NCBI GenBank assembly: GCA_947175285.1
Contig: CAMWMM010000295.1
Span: forward strand, 1 to 6,492
Direction of reading: 5' to 3'
Length of the DNA stretch: 6,492 nt
DNA from: an uncultured Lachnospiraceae bacterium
Lineage (GTDB): Bacteria; Bacillota_A; Clostridia; Lachnospirales; Lachnospiraceae
The notes below the pieces were generated by a model. That model saw only the letters and a program-made list of their open reading frames with translations, was not told the origin of the DNA and did no database searches. This document shows, in pieces, positions 1-6,492 of the stretch; positions within the stretch are counted from its first letter, which is position 1; each line of letters opens with the position of its first letter. The translations under genes and the position numbers were made by a program.

Positions 1-6
1 ACATTT

Positions 7-55
7 TAGTAGTAACAAAAAAACGAGGAAATTCAAGGGGTTTGGGTTTCCGAGA
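7..55 (+). repeat. Left copy of 49-bp terminal inverted repeat
   Basis: Positions 7-55 are a perfect reverse complement of 6444-6492. The copy begins TAGTAGTAACAAAAAAACGA and ends GGGTTTGGGTTTCCGAGA; identity stops sharply after CCGAGA, where the flanks become unrelated. It contains two tandem GGGTTT units (38-49). Six extra bases (1-6) precede it, so the repeat may extend beyond the window. A sharp boundary with unique flanks fits the end of a multicopy mobile element; an assembly or amplification chimera would look similar. One frame across it is open from the left edge to a TAA at 95-97, so it could be the 3' end of an unseen gene, but I do not recognise the peptide. Confidence 0.95.
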
Positions 56-83
56 AGGCTCTATGAATTTTTAGGGGTGGAAA

Positions 84-863
84 ATGAGCGCAATTAACAA
101 TAAAGATATCGTTCAAAAACAATACGAAACTTCAGCAAATCTGAATACAAGAATTTCTATTCATGATAAATACTCTGTTAATAAACAAGGATTTGGGAAC
201 TGGATTGCATCGAATTATCAAATAACTGATGGAATGAGAATATTGGAACTTGGTTGTGGTACTGGTGACATGTGGACAAGCAATTCAAATCTCATAGCAA
301 AATGTGCAGAACTAGTACTGACAGATTTTTCAGAAGGAATGATTCAAACTGCTCACAGTAACATAGGGGATTTTCCCAATGTTACATATCAAGTTGTCGA
401 TATTCAGGAAATCCCGTTTGAAGGGAACAATTTTGACATTGTGATCGCTAATATGATGTTGTATCATGTTCCTGATTTAGGAAAGGGGCTATCTGAGGTC
501 AAAAGGGTTTTGAAAGAAAGTGGAAGATTTTATTGTGCCACTTACGGAGAGCATGGCATTGTACAGTATATCACCAATTTACTAAAACCATATGGGGCAG
601 AGGACAAAGTAAATAAGAATTTTACTCTTCAAAACGGAAAGCAAATACTTGCACAATATTTCTCGTCCGTAGAAATGATGGAATATATTGATTCACTCGA
701 AGTCACAAACATAGATGATCTGTTGGATTATATATATTCACTTACCAGCATGACAGAAGTTTCAAATATAAAGAGAGATGTTATTAAAAAGGTTTTAGAG
801 CAAAATATGGAAGACGGAATTTTGAAAGTACCAAAGGAATATGGGATGTTTGTTTGCAGGTAA
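84..863 (+). CDS. Class I SAM-dependent methyltransferase (Methyltransf_11-like)
   Basis: A 259-residue cytosolic protein with the Rossmann methyltransferase fold, expected to move a methyl group from S-adenosylmethionine to an unidentified acceptor. Motif I is ILELGCGTG at residues 53-61. The acidic residue that would bind the SAM ribose is D81 in LTDFS. D106 in VVDIQEIPF matches motif II/III, and FDIVIANMMLYHV (117-129) is the motif IV region typical of UbiE/Methyltransf_11 enzymes. The C-terminal 100 residues look like an alpha-helical substrate cap. The ATG at 84 is preceded by AGGGG (73-77) at 6-nt spacing, supporting this start. The gene is noticeably AT-richer than rsmG, which suggests an accessory origin. 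No neighbour indicates the substrate. The methyltransferase assignment is secure; any specific name would be a guess. Confidence 0.9.
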   Translation: MSAINNKDIVQKQYETSANLNTRISIHDKYSVNKQGFGNWIASNYQITDGMRILELGCGTGDMWTSNSNLIAKCAELVLTDFSEGMIQTAHSNIGDFPNVTYQVVDIQEIPFEGNNFDIVIANMMLYHVPDLGKGLSEVKRVLKESGRFYCATYGEHGIVQYITNLLKPYGAEDKVNKNFTLQNGKQILAQYFSSVEMMEYIDSLEVTNIDDLLDYIYSLTSMTEVSNIKRDVIKKVLEQNMEDGILKVPKEYGMFVCR

Positions 864-939
864 ATTGCAGCGTGGCAGCATTAGCATAATAAATGATATG
901 TATGAACTTGTTCTGTAAGTGGAATGTCCATTCAACTAT

Positions 940-945
940 GGAGGG
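940..945 (+). promoter_or_regulatory. Ribosome binding site that fixes the LRR-gene start
   Basis: GGAGGG lies 6 nt upstream of the ATG at 952. The open frame extends up to a GTG at 919, but that start has no comparable Shine-Dalgarno sequence, so 952 is preferred. Confidence 0.8.
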
Positions 946-951
946 AAAGAA

Positions 952-1674
952 ATGAAAGAAGATAAAAAAATTGAATTTACACAGAAGTGGATTAGAGATG
1001 CAGTAAAAAAACTATTTCAAAAAGAAGATATTTACGAAAGTGATATGGAGAAGATCAAGTATCTGCTTATTGGTGAGGACTTCTATAACGGCTACATGAT
1101 CGAAATGAGCACAGCAACGCCGGCAGATCCTTTCTGCGATACAGATGGCGGCGATGAGTGGGAACTGGGCGGTGATGGCGCCACTGTGACTGGCAGATTC
1201 ATTCAGCTTTACATAGACTATGTGAAGGAGAATCCCTTTGATTACATCGATTCAGATACAGGGGAGCGTACCTTTGAACTTTCGCAGCTGCACTTTTGGG
1301 ATAAGTATAAAGAGGAATATGAGGAATCGGAGACGGAGGAGGATTGTGAGGATTATGAGGATTGGAAAGATACAGTAAAGAAGTGGAAATCATATGAGAA
1401 GACGATTCAGTGTGAAAGATATTTTGAAAAATTTGATAACGATGATGCCTACGATGAGTGGTATCAGCAGGTAGGACAAACCATTCAGTGTGATATTGGT
1501 CTGTTTACCGGCCTGGAGGTGTTACGGACTCAGGGGGCGGAATATCAGGATATGACTTTCTTGAGAACGATGCCTCTTCTGCGGGTATGGGAAGTGGTGG
1601 AGACACAATTTCACTCCCTGGAAGGTATAGATGACCTCGTGCGGCTGAAACAGCTTTGCTGCTGGATGGATTGA
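952..1674 (+). CDS. Acidic protein with C-terminal leucine-rich-repeat-like segment, probably truncated
   Basis: A 240-residue protein from the ATG at 952. It has no signal peptide or membrane segment, so it is probably cytosolic. Residues 1-115 form a globular-looking region containing a DGGDEWELGGDG stretch (65-76). Residues 116-175 are highly charged and acidic, with an EEYEESETEEDCEDYEDW run. Residues 185-240 show two SDS22-like leucine-rich units of about 21-22 residues (LEVLRTQGAEYQDMTFL; LLRVWEVVETQFHSLEGI), and a third begins at RLKQLCCWMD before the TGA at 1672. LRR arrays rarely end so abruptly, and coding-like sequence continues in the same frame after the stop (1675-1854), so the gene probably lost its C-terminus. 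I do not recognise the N-terminal domain. Similar LRR proteins often mediate protein binding, but no function is supported here. Confidence 0.65.
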   Translation: MKEDKKIEFTQKWIRDAVKKLFQKEDIYESDMEKIKYLLIGEDFYNGYMIEMSTATPADPFCDTDGGDEWELGGDGATVTGRFIQLYIDYVKENPFDYIDSDTGERTFELSQLHFWDKYKEEYEESETEEDCEDYEDWKDTVKKWKSYEKTIQCERYFEKFDNDDAYDEWYQQVGQTIQCDIGLFTGLEVLRTQGAEYQDMTFLRTMPLLRVWEVVETQFHSLEGIDDLVRLKQLCCWMD

Positions 1675-1854
1675 AAATATACTGATAACCGCTCTCCGAT
1701 CAAAGATGGGGTTACGATCGACGGCGTGACAGATGGTCATCTGAATCAGAGTGTTTAATGGAAGTGCCATTTTGAGGATGCTATGATCGATCCGGGGCGG
1801 GCGGTACTGGACATATGCATCAACGAGTATTCTGCGTGGCAGCGTCAGGGTTGA
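1675..1854 (+). pseudogene. In-frame remnant of the LRR-gene 3' end
   Basis: After the TGA at 1672-1674, the same reading frame gives 27 protein-like codons (including SPIKDGVTIDGVTDGHL) up to a TAA at 1756-1758. A further 31 codons follow (including CHFEDAMIDPGRAVLDICIN and ending SAWQRQG) before a TGA at 1852-1854. Both parts have ordinary amino-acid composition and share the upstream frame, so they are best read as the former C-terminus of the protein starting at 952, broken by two nonsense changes and perhaps an internal deletion of LRR units. There is no start codon with a ribosome binding site inside the segment. The link to the upstream gene is inferred from frame and position only. 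Confidence 0.5.
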
Positions 1855-1886
1855 GGATATTGGACTATGAAAGGGAATTACAATAA

Positions 1887-2447
1887 ATGATCTATTTGGA
1901 AACGGAACGTTTTATATTGAGGGATTACTGTGAAAATGATTTTGATCAATATTATCGATTAAAATCGGATTCCAAAACGATGTATTATTTGCAGGATATA
2001 CAATTATTTACAAGGGAAGAAGCTCATGAAGATTTTTGCAGGGTTCTGGATGATTTGTCAAAGCCAGATCGGAAGTTTTATTTCCTGCACATTGAGTTAA
2101 AAGATTCACGGGAGCAGGTCGGAAGTGTTGGCTATACGGTAATCGATGATACTCCTGTTGGAAAAATAGTTGGCGCGGGGTATTTCACCTATCCAAAGTT
2201 CTGGGGAAGAGGATATATGACAGAAGCATTTGGGCGGGTTTTGGAGTTTGCGTTTTCTGAGAATAATGTATACAGAGTATCTACAGGGTGCTTAGCGGAA
2301 AATACAGGATCAGAGAGAGTCATGCAAAAATGTGGCTTGATCAAAGAGGCAGAACATATTGATTATGAATGGCATGATGGGAAAATGAAAACGCGATTGG
2401 AATATCGGTTATTGAGAAGAGAGTGGGGACAGCATGGATTGGAATAA
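1887..2447 (+). CDS. GNAT-family N-acetyltransferase, RimJ/RimL type
   Basis: A 186-residue protein of the Acetyltransf_3 (RimJ/RimL/YdaF-like) class, which transfers acetyl from acetyl-CoA to an amine, either a protein N-terminus or a small molecule. It opens with the typical LETERFILRDYCENDFD. The acetyl-CoA pyrophosphate-binding loop (motif A) is FWGRGYMTEAFGRVLEFAF, about residues 109-127 (Q/RxxGxG/A form: GRGYMTEA). Motif B follows as CLAENTGSERVMQKCGLIKEA, the classic N-xxS-xxVxxKxGF-like segment. Length is normal and the gene looks intact. A weak AAGGGA (1870-1875) precedes the ATG by about 11 nt. Its 3' end overlaps rsmG by 14 bp, so the two are very likely co-transcribed and translationally coupled. 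The acetylated substrate cannot be told from sequence. Confidence 0.9.
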   Translation: MIYLETERFILRDYCENDFDQYYRLKSDSKTMYYLQDIQLFTREEAHEDFCRVLDDLSKPDRKFYFLHIELKDSREQVGSVGYTVIDDTPVGKIVGAGYFTYPKFWGRGYMTEAFGRVLEFAFSENNVYRVSTGCLAENTGSERVMQKCGLIKEAEHIDYEWHDGKMKTRLEYRLLRREWGQHGLE

Positions 2448-3162
2448 ATACGATTTTGCGCCATTTTGTGATAGTGTGAAAGAGTTCGGTTTGCGGCTGG
2501 ATGATGATCAGATTGCACAATTTATGCAGTATTATGAATTGCTGACCGAGTGGAATCAATTTATGAATCTGACAGCGATCACGGAGTTTGAAGAGGTATG
2601 TATGAAACATTTTATAGATAGTATCTCTTTGTGCAAGGCGGTTGACTGTACAAGGGATTATACAGTGATTGATGTAGGAACAGGCGCAGGGTTTCCAGGG
2701 ATTCCATTAAAAATTGCTTTTCCGAACTTAAAGATTACGCTTCTTGATTCGCTTGGAAAGAGAGTAAAATTCTTGAATGAAGTGATAAAACGTCTGGGGG
2801 TTGAGGATATTGAGGCGATTCATGGTAGGGCGGAGGATTTTGCAAAGCCGGGCCAGCTGCGGGAGCAGTTTGATCTCTGCGTGTCACGTGCAGTCGCAAA
2901 TCTTTCTACCTTATCAGAGTATTGCCTTCCTTATGTAAAAATTGGTGGATTTTTCATTTCTTATAAATCAGAAAAAATTTCCGATGAGATGCAGACAGCA
3001 CGCCATGCGATTGCGCTTCTCGGAGGAAATGTTTATGATCAGAAGGAATTTATTTTACCCAATTCTGATATTTATAGAAATCTGTTTCAAATCAAAAAAG
3101 TCATAGCGACGCCGAAAAAATACCCAAGAAAGGCAGGGATTCCTTCGAAAGAGCCACTTTAA
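2434..3162 (+). CDS. rsmG: 16S rRNA (guanine527-N7)-methyltransferase RsmG
   Basis: A 242-residue enzyme, normal length for RsmG (GidB), which uses SAM to make m7G527 in the 530 loop of 16S rRNA; in other bacteria its loss gives low-level streptomycin resistance. Diagnostic features are the N-terminal helical segment with LLTEWNQFMNLTAIT (37-50), KHFIDSISL (58-66), motif I VIDVGTGAGFPGIPLKI (78-94), LLDSLGKRVKFLNEV (103-117), HGRAEDFA (130-137), the catalytic-core VSRAVANLSTLSEYCLPYVK (150-169), and the C-terminal YPRKAGIPSKEPL (230-242) typical of the family. The ATG at 2434 has GAGTGGGG (2421-2428) 5 nt upstream and lies inside the end of the GNAT gene. In many bacteria rsmG follows mnmG near oriC; here mnmG is not immediately upstream. 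The identification is firm. Confidence 0.98.
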   Translation: MDWNKYDFAPFCDSVKEFGLRLDDDQIAQFMQYYELLTEWNQFMNLTAITEFEEVCMKHFIDSISLCKAVDCTRDYTVIDVGTGAGFPGIPLKIAFPNLKITLLDSLGKRVKFLNEVIKRLGVEDIEAIHGRAEDFAKPGQLREQFDLCVSRAVANLSTLSEYCLPYVKIGGFFISYKSEKISDEMQTARHAIALLGGNVYDQKEFILPNSDIYRNLFQIKKVIATPKKYPRKAGIPSKEPL

Positions 3163-3180
3163 ATTCTATTCTTATAATAC

Positions 3181-3215
3181 ATTACTGTGAAAGTGCTCTA
3201 TACTTTCATAGTAAT
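3181..3215 (+). terminator. Strong hairpin after rsmG, possible transcription terminator
   Basis: ATTACTGTGAAAGT (3181-3194) pairs with ACTTTCATAGTAAT (3202-3215) across a 7-nt loop. This gives 14 continuous pairs, one of them G-T. It begins 18 nt after the rsmG stop, where an operon terminator is expected. No clear T-run follows (ATTTAG), so intrinsic termination may be weak; an mRNA-stabilising 3' hairpin or a protein-binding palindrome are alternatives. Confidence 0.5.
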
Positions 3216-3357
3216 ATTTAGAAATGATTTGAATTTTGGTGTATATAAATACATATGTTTTTGTTATAGTTGGAAATTTTTAAGAATTAACTTGATAATT
3301 CTACTTGTTTAAATCTGTATTAATGTTATTCGGTGTATGTTCAATATACCTTCTTAC

Positions 3358-3386
3358 TCTATGCAGATATATTCTATGCAATATAT
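3358..3386 (+). repeat. Tandem 14/15-bp direct repeat
   Basis: TCTATGCAGATATAT (3358-3372) is followed immediately by TCTATGCAATATAT (3373-3386); the two differ by one inserted G. It lies about 100 bp upstream of the presumed promoter of the two-component operon. It could be a duplicated regulator-binding site or a slippage product of AT-rich DNA. Confidence 0.75.
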
Positions 3387-3488
3387 GATATTATTTCTTT
3401 ATGATTTGTTAGGAACTGTTCGGAAATAACTTGTGAGAAGGACACCTTATAAATAATTCCTTATTGTGTAATCGTTAATTTTCTCCCA

Positions 3489-3516
3489 TTGATTTTGTAT
3501 GTATATGGTTTATAAT
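3489..3516 (+). promoter_or_regulatory. Probable sigma-A promoter of the two-component operon
   Basis: TTGATT (-35, 3489-3494), a 16-bp spacer, and a perfect TATAAT (-10, 3511-3516). A start near 3523 would leave a leader of about 80 nt before the kinase ATG. The -10 is exact and the -35 matches four of six consensus positions. Confidence 0.55.
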
Positions 3517-3604
3517 ATTTTATTTTGATTAATTAGTAGAAATATTATTTTAATTCTCTGTTGTAGCCGGTGGTGCTAACTTTGTAAAAGAAAGGAAAAG
3601 AAGA

Positions 3605-4252
3605 ATGGACAAGAAAGAAATTTTACTGCTGCAGGAGACTGAGCGGAAACGTATTGCTGAGGGACTTCATGATACGACTGTTCAGGATATGATCTGTTTG
3701 TCACAGCAGTTGGAGTTAATCCTATTATATATGGAACAGGATGTGGCGCGTGCCAAGTTAGAAACAGCGGCTGCGCGAAAGCAGGTAAAGCGTATCATTA
3801 ATGAAATGCGGGAGACAATTTATGAGTTGCGTCCGATGATAATAGATGATATTGGGTGGAAGGCTTCGTTTGAGCGTTTGAGAGACAAACTGATATCTGA
3901 AAATACAAATTTAAAGGTTTGTTTTGATATTGATGCAGTAGATCTTTCAGACGGGGTAACAGCAATTTCCATTTATCGCATCGTGTGTGAAGGGTGTCAG
4001 AATATGATGAAACATTCTAATGCTGACCGTATTGATGTTTTGGTTAAAAATGATGGAAAATTGATTAGAATCTGTATTCAGGATAACGGGGTTGGAATTG
4101 AGAAAGAGACAGATCTTTATAAAAATCATTTTGGTCTGCAGTTTATGAGCGAGAGGGTAGACGCACTTTCTGGAAAAATGAAAATTGTTTCTGACTCTTC
4201 TGGTACACAGATCAACATAGAGGTTCCAGCAGAAAGCGGGGTAGAAAAATGA
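3605..4252 (+). CDS. Sensorless LiaS/DegS-type histidine kinase (HisKA_3 + HATPase_c)
   Basis: A 215-residue histidine kinase of the NarX/DegS/LiaS class, expected to autophosphorylate and pass phosphate to the response regulator encoded next. The HisKA_3 dimerisation domain starts almost at once: ERKRIAEGLHDTTVQ (13-27) carries the phosphoacceptor H22 with the usual ER-R-x-LHD-xxxQ pattern, followed by the second helix and YELRPMIIDDIGW (73-85). The ATPase domain shows an N-box IYRIVCEGCQNMMKHSNA (123-140), G1 box DNGVGI (160-165) and FGLQFMSERV (176-185). No transmembrane segment, PAS or GAF domain is present, so it is cytosolic and must sense through a partner or its linker. The start is supported by AGGA (3593-3596), 8 nt upstream of the ATG. 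Upstream in-frame sequence stops at 3551 and shows no lost sensor. Its last codons overlap the regulator gene by 4 bp (ATGA). Confidence 0.93.
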   Translation: MDKKEILLLQETERKRIAEGLHDTTVQDMICLSQQLELILLYMEQDVARAKLETAAARKQVKRIINEMRETIYELRPMIIDDIGWKASFERLRDKLISENTNLKVCFDIDAVDLSDGVTAISIYRIVCEGCQNMMKHSNADRIDVLVKNDGKLIRICIQDNGVGIEKETDLYKNHFGLQFMSERVDALSGKMKIVSDSSGTQINIEVPAESGVEK

Positions 4253-4893
4253 TACGTATTATGATTGTAGATGACCATAAGATGTTTCGGGAAGGGTTAA
4301 CAAAGCTGATTGAATTTGATGAAGAGATCAAAGTAGTTGAGGAGGCAGATGATGGTTTGGATTGCATCAATAAGCTTCGAAGTGCGAAACCGGATATGAT
4401 ACTTTTAGATATTAATATGTCAGATATGGATGGTATTGAGACGCTTAAGGAATTAAATCATAGAAAACATCGTCCAAAGGTTATAATGCTTACAGTGCAT
4501 AATGAAATTGAATATTTGATCAAAGTACTTGATCTGGGAGTGGAGGGCTATATTTTAAAGGATTCCAGTTCCAAGGAATTGATTCGTGCAATTCGGTTTG
4601 TTTATAATGGTGAACGATTTATTCAGCCCAGTTTGATTCCATTGTTGAATTCCAAATTGATTGCAAGGGATATGGATCGGGAGAAGATGGATTCCCTTAC
4701 AAACAGAGAGATGGAAATATTGAAATTGGTGGCGCTTGGGCATTTTAATAAAGATATTGCGTCAATTCTCTCTATCACGGAGCGCACTGTGAAAAATAAT
4801 CTGACGAGTGTTTTTCAGAAAATAGACTGTGCTGACCGGACGCAGGCTGCTATCTTTTGTATCAGGAATGGAGTGGTCAGTGTGCATGAATGA
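4249..4893 (+). CDS. NarL/FixJ-family response regulator
   Basis: A 214-residue DNA-binding response regulator. The receiver domain (about 1-120) has the acidic pair D8-D9 in MIVDDHKMF, phosphoacceptor D54 in ILLDINMSDMDG, the conserved T82 in MLTVH, and K104 in YILKDSS, so it should be competent for phosphorylation by the kinase upstream. The C-terminal LuxR-type helix-turn-helix (about 149-210) reads LTNREMEILKLVALGHFNKD, then IASILSITERTVKNNLTSVF, the usual GerE-fold signature, with VKNN in place of the common VKxH. The ATG overlaps the kinase stop in an ATGA, a typical translational coupling. Its regulon cannot be deduced. The palindromic and repeated sites at 3358-3386 and 4954-4970 are the nearest candidate targets, but this is speculation. 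Confidence 0.96.
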   Translation: MIRIMIVDDHKMFREGLTKLIEFDEEIKVVEEADDGLDCINKLRSAKPDMILLDINMSDMDGIETLKELNHRKHRPKVIMLTVHNEIEYLIKVLDLGVEGYILKDSSSKELIRAIRFVYNGERFIQPSLIPLLNSKLIARDMDREKMDSLTNREMEILKLVALGHFNKDIASILSITERTVKNNLTSVFQKIDCADRTQAAIFCIRNGVVSVHE

Positions 4894-4922
4894 TTATTTT
4901 TGAAGAATTGCAACAATGCACA

Positions 4923-4951
4923 TTGAAATATCAGAACACTTGTGCTATAAT
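4923..4951 (+). promoter_or_regulatory. Strong extended -10 promoter of the restriction-modification gene
   Basis: TTGAAA (-35, 4923-4928), a 17-bp spacer, then TATAAT (4946-4951), preceded by TGC (4943-4945), which gives an extended -10. This is close to the ideal sigma-A promoter. The expected start is near 4958, with a leader of about 70 nt to the ATG at 5028. It shows that the restriction-modification gene is transcribed separately from the two-component operon. Confidence 0.8.
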
Positions 4952-4953
4952 TT

Positions 4954-4971
4954 AATCAGAATCATTGATTG
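4954..4971 (+). promoter_or_regulatory. Candidate operator at the transcription start
   Basis: AATCAG, AATCAT and TGATTG follow one another in 6-bp phase. The last two form an AATCA-T-TGATT palindrome (4960-4970) and the first repeats the half-site. The group overlaps and follows the predicted +1 of the promoter at 4923-4951, where a bound repressor would block initiation. No regulator is identified. Confidence 0.3.
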
Positions 4972-5013
4972 AAAAATGCAGTAAGGCAATAAAAAATAAT
5001 GAAATGTTTGGAT

Positions 5014-5019
5014 GGAGGG
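5014..5019 (+). promoter_or_regulatory. Ribosome binding site that fixes the restriction-modification gene start
   Basis: GGAGGG lies 8 nt before the ATG at 5028. An in-frame ATG at 5004 has no Shine-Dalgarno sequence and would place this site inside the coding region, so 5028 is preferred. Confidence 0.8.
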
Positions 5020-5027
5020 ATAAAATA

Positions 5028-6492
5028 ATGGGTGAAAATAAAGTAATTGTTATTCCAGATGGGAAAATATGTGATTACATAGATGGCAAATTTCGCAATG
5101 ATACTCCTGAAGAATATGTAAGACAGACAATTGAAAAGCGTCTTGTCAATGAACATAAATATTCGTTGGATCAGATTTCTATTGAATATACATTACAGCT
5201 TGGTTCAAGAAAGCCTCGTGCGGACATTGTTATCTTTGACAAAAAAGCTTCCAGTCACACACAGGAAAACGTAAAATTGATTATTGAATGTAAAAAGGAA
5301 ACAGTTGATGCTCGAAATGCAAAAGGCGGTGTCGAGCAATTAAAATCATATATGTCAGTGTGTCCAAATTGCGAATGGGGAATGTGGACAAATGGAAAAC
5401 AAAAGGAAGTATTTCGAAAATTTATAAATGACAAAGGACAAATTGATTTCATGGATTACAATGATATACCTTCTGCTGATGGTAATTTGGATGATATTAA
5501 CCGTCCAAAAAGAACATCATTAAAAAATGCCTATGATGACAATCTGCTTTTTGTTTTTAAAACCTGTCATAACCATATCCATATTAATGATGGATTGCAA
5601 AAACAGTCCGCTTTTTTTGAACTGCTAAAGGTGATTTTCTGTAAGATTGAAGATGAGCGAAATATACCTTCGCCCTTAGAATTTTATACTACTTCAGATG
5701 AACGCTCCAATCCAGATGGTCAGTTAACCGTTCGCAAGCGTATTTCTAAAATTTTTGACAGAGTGAAAAAGAAACATGGAAAAATCTTTGACGCAAATGA
5801 TGAAATTAAATTGTCACCACGCAGTCTTGCCTATATTGTGAGTGAGCTGCAAAAGTATAGTTTATTAAATACAAATATTGATATCAAAGGAAAGGCATAT
5901 GAAGAAATAGTTGGTGCTAATCTTCGTGGTGACCGAGGTGAATTTTTTACGCCGAGAAATGTTATGAAGATGGTAGTCGAAATGATTAATCCGTCAATTG
6001 ACGAGAAGGTATTGGACAGTTCATGTGGAACAGGTGGATTTTTGGTAACTGCTATGACGCATGTAATCATGCAGCTCGAAAAGAAATTTGCTGATTCCAT
6101 TGGGATAAAGAAAGAAGACTGGGATAGCGATACGATGCGTGTATTTCAAGATAAAATTTCTGAAATGGCATCATTAAACTATTTTGGTTTTGATATCAAT
6201 CCAGATCTTGTAAAAGCTACAAAAATGAATATGGTTATGAATAATGATGGAAGTGGTAATATTTTTCAGACAAATTCTTTGCTTCCGCCTCATGAATGGA
6301 CAGATGAGTTCCGAAGTAAACTTGCAGAGACTTTGGGGATTAATCAGTCTGAATTGCGAAATCATAACACCATCGAATGTTTCAATGTAATTGTGACCAA
6401 TCCGCCATTTGGTAGTAAGATACCTATTAAAGATAAGGAGTCCTCTCGGAAACCCAAACCCCTTGAATTTCCTCGTTTTTTTGTTACTACTA
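5028..6492 (+). CDS. Fused HsdR-N-like nuclease / HsdM-like N6-adenine DNA methyltransferase, 3'-truncated by window edge
   Basis: Open for 488 codons with no stop before the window end. Residues about 25-140 match the HSDR_N (PD-(D/E)XK) nuclease domain: RKPRADIVIF gives D66 and LIIECKKE gives E87-x-K89, the metal-binding catalytic set. Residues 160-290 look helical, like the HsdM N-terminal domain. The N6-adenine methyltransferase follows: GKAYEEIVGANLRGDRGEFF (288-307) and TPR, SAM motif I LDSSCGTGGFLV (329-340), FGFDINPDLVKATKMNMVMN (386-405), and catalytic motif IV NPPF (458-461). A nuclease and N6-methylase in one chain suggests a Type IIB/IIG-like or Type I-like system (compare BcgI-A), which would usually need a separate specificity subunit; none is visible. 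HsdM-like sequence ends near E471, and residues 473-488 are encoded by the terminal repeat, so the tail is probably not native. Either the gene is interrupted there or the join is artefactual. Promoter and ribosome binding site are excellent. Confidence 0.92.
   Translation, partial: MGENKVIVIPDGKICDYIDGKFRNDTPEEYVRQTIEKRLVNEHKYSLDQISIEYTLQLGSRKPRADIVIFDKKASSHTQENVKLIIECKKETVDARNAKGGVEQLKSYMSVCPNCEWGMWTNGKQKEVFRKFINDKGQIDFMDYNDIPSADGNLDDINRPKRTSLKNAYDDNLLFVFKTCHNHIHINDGLQKQSAFFELLKVIFCKIEDERNIPSPLEFYTTSDERSNPDGQLTVRKRISKIFDRVKKKHGKIFDANDEIKLSPRSLAYIVSELQKYSLLNTNIDIKGKAYEEIVGANLRGDRGEFFTPRNVMKMVVEMINPSIDEKVLDSSCGTGGFLVTAMTHVIMQLEKKFADSIGIKKEDWDSDTMRVFQDKISEMASLNYFGFDINPDLVKATKMNMVMNNDGSGNIFQTNSLLPPHEWTDEFRSKLAETLGINQSELRNHNTIECFNVIVTNPPFGSKIPIKDKESSRKPKPLEFPRFFVTT
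6444..6492 (-). repeat. Right copy of 49-bp terminal inverted repeat
   Basis: Perfect reverse complement of 7-55. It begins TCTCGGAAACCCAAACCCC immediately after codon 472 of the restriction-modification gene and runs to the last base of the window. It adds a basic, proline-rich tail (SRKPKPLEFPRFFVTT) that does not resemble HsdM sequence after the NPPF motif. The copies face each other at the two edges, so any larger element would extend outward from the window. Confidence 0.95.

Follow-up and report, generated by a model that had tools for sequence, protein, structure and literature searches.

Insertion sequences (ISs) of the IS1182 family (NCBIfam NF033551) encode DDE transposases of ~500 aa, and one member, IS1272, targets inverted repeats (PMC5678879). 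The IS110/IS1111 elements, which use a seekRNA or bridge RNA, combine a long noncoding end with a strong target choice; their enzymes are of the DEDD type, and every IS or close group comes with a target of its own (PMC11187229). The window, that is, the whole stretch of 6,492 nucleotides analysed here, corresponds to positions 23-6514 of the 6536-bp contig C464 of assembly G000 and thus to nearly the whole contig. The repeat at its two edges is almost certainly the right terminus of one IS, of which two nearly identical copies occur in opposite orientations, and the assembler stopped within both.

Comparison with described transposases

Relatives of this IS likewise encode a DDE transposase of ~500 aa. 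However, the match to the IS1182 profile is partial and covers the C-terminal half, and three of the transposases scored 70.8, 55.9 and 79.6 bits, far under the cut-off of 270. The 30 IS1182 members over the cut-off from the same bacterial family have different ends, as far as these could be placed approximately. A consistent Shine-Dalgarno flank was not seen in these 30 members, whose approximate ends leave room for such neighbours. As a control, an inverted repeat scoring at least 14 was found in 13 of the 30 loci; predicted anti-Shine-Dalgarno pairing of -8 or stronger occurred on the transposase-5' side in 4/13 and on the other side in 4/12, a rough count given the approximate ends. IS1272 has palindromic targets; those found here show GGAGG-type sequence and mostly AT-rich duplications. 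Three IS1182-family members (L128, L131 and L134) have long flanking inverted repeats with hairpins by eye, like the IS1272 targets.

The predicted transposase structure (pLDDT 86, pTM 0.84) has Tn5 transposase, of the IS4-type DDE fold, as its top solved-structure matches (1muh and 3ecp). The match is weak (TM 0.29-0.35 and 9-11% identity for the five Tn5 entries among the matches listed); the Foldseek E value against the Tn5 entries is about 2e-3 with a probability of 1.00, and no match reached E <= 0.001. With IS110/IS1111 the IS here shares a long noncoding end and, probably, a strong target choice. In contrast to them, it has a DDE profile rather than a DEDD recombinase and would use one general motif as its target.

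Extent and boundaries of the inverted repeat

The features at the two edges of the window are as follows.

1..61, minus strand: the repeat, right end of copy A of the IS, whose remainder is past the left window edge; relatives have a transposase inward of it, and the left end with the same duplication is on C263
62..67, no strand: target duplication TATGAA of copy A; the left end on C263 adjoins the same 6 bp
6433..6437, no strand: target duplication of copy B, ATAAG here and CTAAG on C3
6438..6492, plus strand: right end of IS copy B, opposite in orientation to copy A; the element runs on past the right window edge, with the left end on C3

A perfect 49-bp inverted repeat had been noticed from the sequence alone, and window positions 7-55 are indeed the reverse complement of 6444-6492. 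The longest gapless inverted pair in the window is 7-61/6438-6492 (55 bp, 96% identity). This repeat is far beyond chance, since the runner-up reported in the window has merely 30 bp at 77%. Each arm measures 71 bp in the parent contig, one reaching the 3' end and the other starting 6 bp from the 5' end, and the window shows 49 perfect base pairs because it truncates these arms. The sharp ends at 55 and 6444 described by the sequence-only reading are real points of divergence between the copies. However, they are not the element boundary; that lies another 6 bp inward, between 61 and 62 on the left and between 6437 and 6438 on the right. The boundary was set there because the target duplications abut at these positions in both copies and at the corresponding position in 15 of 26 complete relatives.

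The assembly (5.6 Mb in 504 contigs, completeness 97.91, estimated contamination 8.7%) contains the right-end sequence at high identity twice, both times on C464; an additional match on C25 has 75% identity. The copy-number check that had been proposed therefore has to be read with care, the left end being present on three contigs. High-identity right ends are limited to these two because other copies collapsed. Both ends of C464 stop within the repeat. Six contig ends of this assembly were compared, and the end of C54 dovetails with the start of C111 over exactly 77 bp. On C464, the left arm also measures 77 bp as far as the divergence of the copies, and the right arm has 71 shared bp plus 6 bp (GGACTC), which gives 77 if these six also occur in another copy. 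C3 and C283 again reach 77 bp into the element's left end before they stop (counted by hand), and C263 extends 266 bp into it. A contig that stops inside both IS copies is what a short-read assembler with k=77 produces when a repeat has collapsed. The window clearly illustrates how a repeat breaks an assembly, and it shows a restriction-modification gene split by an IS.

Two separate insertions

The genes that bear on the two insertions are given below.

84..863, plus strand: Class I SAM methyltransferase gene immediately past copy A (Pfam Methyltransf_31/11/25)
2434..3162, plus strand: rsmG (16S rRNA methyltransferase), an ordinary chromosomal gene (Pfam GidB, 1.6e-54)
5028..6437, plus strand: 5' part of an hsdM-type N-6 DNA methylase gene (Pfam N6_Mtase and HSDR_N_2), interrupted by copy B
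C3 11271-11882, minus strand: 3' part of hsdM, matched by an HsdM homologue

The left end of the element was found in the same assembly at 97-100% identity over 76-77 bp on C3, C283 and C263, with weaker matches on C390 (86%) and C290 (a 31-bp match). The terminal inverted repeats are GAGTCCTCTCGGAAAC at the right end and GAGTAGTCTCGGAAAC at the left end. On C263 the left end is preceded by TATGAA, identical to window 62-67, and because the same TATGAA is present at both, the copy A site originally lay between C263 and the left edge of C464. The target duplication of copy B is identical in 4/5 bp between the window and C3. The disruption of a conserved gene at the right copy, which had been recognised without database searches, is borne out by two HsdM homologues (98% identical, 671-679 aa) that go on KDKNILEQYELAHIW where the window reads KDKESSRKPKP. 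Residues 1-471 of one homologue (P0003) match C464 and residues 468-671 match C3, which ends with the left end of the element adjoining hsdM. Joining of the two hsdM flanks yields VTNPPFGSKIPIKDKNILEQYELAHI, in frame and the same as P0003. The next ORF on C3 looks hsdS-like by eye.

Each copy has its own target duplication at its own edges, and the copies therefore entered separately. Copy A lies ahead of the methyltransferase gene and copy B within hsdM. The interior of both copies, which is not assembled, would encode a transposase as in the relatives. Thus, of the readings offered for the repeat, that of outward-facing copies of one mobile-element end flanking the segment was the correct one, the end being the same right end of an IS in two copies. 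Among the observations that weigh against this reading, the duplication of copy B is not perfect, a full IS of exactly this type is absent from the contigs of the assembly, the assembly has its estimated contamination of 8.7%, 11 of 26 complete relatives show no duplication at the strict boundary, and the target of copy B is a poor Shine-Dalgarno match. The segment between the copies is ordinary chromosome, including rsmG and the kinase-regulator pair, and not a simple transposon, as had been argued from the presence of rsmG. The pair (3605-4893) consists of two overlapping genes, one for a short histidine kinase (215 aa) that has no further Pfam domain and one for a LuxR-type response regulator. 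At 919-1674 the window has a 251-aa ORF without a Pfam match.

Inverted copies of such repeats are a usual substrate for recombinational flipping, and the ~1.9-kb inverted repeats here are 6.4 kb apart. Inversion of the 6.4-kb segment by homologous recombination between the IS copies, which would be a consequence of the insertions and not an alternative to them, is nevertheless judged unlikely; no recombinase was found among the 7 window proteins scanned, a result that is not decisive. Because the contigs stop within the IS, the pairing of the junctions gives the original insertions rather than the present orientation. Movement of the 6.4-kb segment as one unit, a composite transposon, had been suggested as well, and the two inverted copies of one IS on its flanks are in keeping with it. 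However, it is highly improbable, as the duplications of the two copies are separate (TATGAA; ATAAG/CTAAG) with no common one outside both, hsdM was formerly continuous across the copy B site, and the segment carries housekeeping genes such as rsmG. An equally implausible reading, also raised earlier, is an assembly or amplification chimera in which a short sequence was artificially joined inversely at both contig ends: the repeat does lie exactly at both ends, and the assembly has no other high-identity occurrence of it, but for each junction there is a partner contig carrying the IS left end with a matching target duplication, the hsdM halves rejoin in frame, and related right ends adjoining a transposase are found in other genomes.

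Several contigs of the same assembly carry further copies or subtypes. Two transposase fragments (C54/C111) belong to a subtype other than the IS of the window. On C111 (L113, 700-860), an IS subtype with the end GCACAC sits immediately ahead of a small ORF that resembles MerR by eye, and GAGGAGGT is present here too. The copy on C390 (L122) is shorter and apparently internally deleted; its left flank recurs in another genome (G024:C91, L124), probably as an old shared insertion.

The IS group and its relatives

A pattern scan yielded 20 loci, from Lachnospiraceae and related records; many lie where a contig stops. Complete copies are ~1.9 kb and carry a gene of ~502 aa reading away from the repeat, whose product matches Pfam DDE_Tnp_1. 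Residues D223, D330 and E456 are invariant across 27 aligned transposases of the relatives and presumably form the catalytic acidic triad. In the complete relative L044 the element spans 3521-5447 (1927 bp) and is flanked by the duplication GGATTTA (coordinates by eye). The element interrupts an ORF that resembles a methyltransferase by eye and is continuous without the insertion. The clades were assigned by end sequence (clade 1, 37 sites; clade 2, 18 sites). The duplication at the strict boundary has 4-8 bp in the 15 of the 26 relatives with both ends found, and it is present in 11/12 of clade 1 plus its Carboxydocella relative and in 4/14 of clade 2. The 11/26 without a duplication of at least 4 bp at this boundary are L046 and ten clade-2 copies.

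The group is scattered. Transposase matches at E <= 1e-3 were found in 14/38 genomes of the genus and at E <= 1e-20 in 20/397 genomes of the family, and a large protein set gave 789 proteins at E <= 1e-40 among 7919 candidates. Four plasmid records have a relative (29.0-35.5% identical); no relative was found in the phage records searched. A transposase relative on plasmid pMU3262 (NC_017998.1 48458-49969) is annotated there as no more than a hypothetical protein.

Alignment of the right-end noncoding region of 12 relatives showed two conserved hairpins with compensatory changes: for 16/33 predicted pairs, one sequence or more has both partners changed. One of the hairpins covers the Shine-Dalgarno sequence of the transposase itself, and a TTGACA box in the region is invariant. 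An Rfam search of L003 and L011 returned nothing relevant and one sub-threshold microRNA match. At L011 5466-6595, a two-ORF DDE_3 transposase, which we take to be IS630-like, is located ~180 bp from a right end. Shortly before an AAA-ATPase_like / PDDEXK_9 gene, L012 has at 2059-2119 what looks like a decayed right end (81% over 64 columns). The repeat was considered as a leader of PD-(D/E)XK genes, from the copy before such a gene in L012 and seemingly in L014. This was dropped, as the two L014 ORFs have no Pfam match and other copies precede other genes by eye.

A Shine-Dalgarno-like sequence beyond the right end

The right ends in the window face the following sequences.

73..80, plus strand: Shine-Dalgarno-like AGGGGTGG facing the right end of copy A; core 18 nt after CCGAGA, predicted anti-Shine-Dalgarno pairing -9.9 kcal/mol
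6422..6426, minus strand: weak Shine-Dalgarno-like TAGGT facing copy B; core at +18, inside hsdM and antisense to it, predicted pairing -3.8 kcal/mol

The former probably serves the methyltransferase gene at 84 as its ribosome binding site. Sequences resembling GGAGG were first noticed past the right end in the pattern-scan loci, and their occurrence was then tested on more sites. The flanks were picked by a script that merged duplicates by the first 30 nt and dropped flanks under 40 nt (e.g. L046); a few of the ends may be wrong, and one site or more in the left-end set is doubtful (L066/L112). Pairing with the 3' end of the 16S rRNA, at a threshold of -6 kcal/mol or stronger, was predicted for 52/55 right ends vs. 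1/35 left ends, and for 21.6% of 3000 random windows. The three right ends without such pairing are L096, L102 and copy B of the window. An exact AGGAG, GGAGG or GAGGT within nt 16-24 is present at 36/55 right ends vs. 0/35 left ends, and further out in those flanks in 4/432 windows. The first base of the core, with nine 5-mers allowed, lies 17 or 18 nt beyond CCGAGA in 40/55. The Shine-Dalgarno-like flank is present at 32/34 of the sites found only via the transposase or in own-genome contigs, and at 20/21 of the pattern-scan loci plus the window.

The preferred core and its spacing differ between the clades. Clade 1 prefers GAGGT (17 of its 24 sites with GAGG), with GAGG at +18 in 16/24, and clade 2 prefers GAGGA (11 of 15), with GAGG at +19 in 12/15. 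The base after GAGG, scored as T or not T, differs between the clades with a Fisher p of 1.6e-4. In the background of GGAGG before ATG in all loci collected, the next base is A in 99, T in 65, C in 57 and G in 25 (n=246). Under another anchoring, which took overlapping cores inconsistently, T over A was 15:9 in clade 1 vs. 1:12 in clade 2.

A probable target preference

The statistics of the relatives suggest that the IS group probably inserts with its right end facing a GGAGG-type sequence ~17-18 nt beyond CCGAGA. This scattered, unnamed group of DDE ISs in Lachnospiraceae, with distant relatives in Thermoanaerobacterium, Carboxydocella and Alicyclobacillus, likely recognises the Shine-Dalgarno motif at the DNA level and targets it, with a preference that would be encoded by the element and differ between clades. 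The transposase or another element factor would read the motif, which the structured noncoding end would face, and landing would often be between the promoter and the ribosome binding site. The preferences of the clades would differ by one base and one nucleotide of spacing, and this difference suggests an element-encoded preference.

The enrichment could instead reflect survivorship, in which the element does not recognise the motif and insertions just ahead of gene starts are retained as the least harmful, and by the criterion used here, 26/55 sites do have a start codon and an open frame following them. We regard this as improbable. The motif is found at all 26 of these sites but also at 26/29 sites without such a start, and two motif sites are within split ORFs (L044 and, weakly, hsdM), where the motif belongs to the interrupted gene, most sites being without a sequenced empty allele. 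Furthermore, the spacing is narrow, with a peak at about 11-26 nt and background beyond, and survivorship does not fit the clade differences in the base after GAGG and in spacing. A guide RNA antisense to the leader, linking the Shine-Dalgarno sequence of the transposase itself with the target, was considered and not supported: leaders of the L044 type have GGAGGC and targets mostly GGAGGT (by eye, not counted).

Among the matches listed from the titles and abstract openings of open-access literature, there was no IS targeting Shine-Dalgarno sequences. Recognition of the motif by the element, if true, would provide a landing mark at very many genes that often leaves the coding sequence and the ribosome binding site intact. 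Such a strategy would be distinctive in pairing plentiful targets with little damage, and it could inspire a tool that places DNA immediately upstream of genes. In three of the four plasmid records, examined by eye, the Thermoanaerobacterium relative has GGAGG at +18, counted after CCGAAA, the Carboxydocella relative has GAGGT at about +22, and the Alicyclobacillus relative has GGGGG at about +16.
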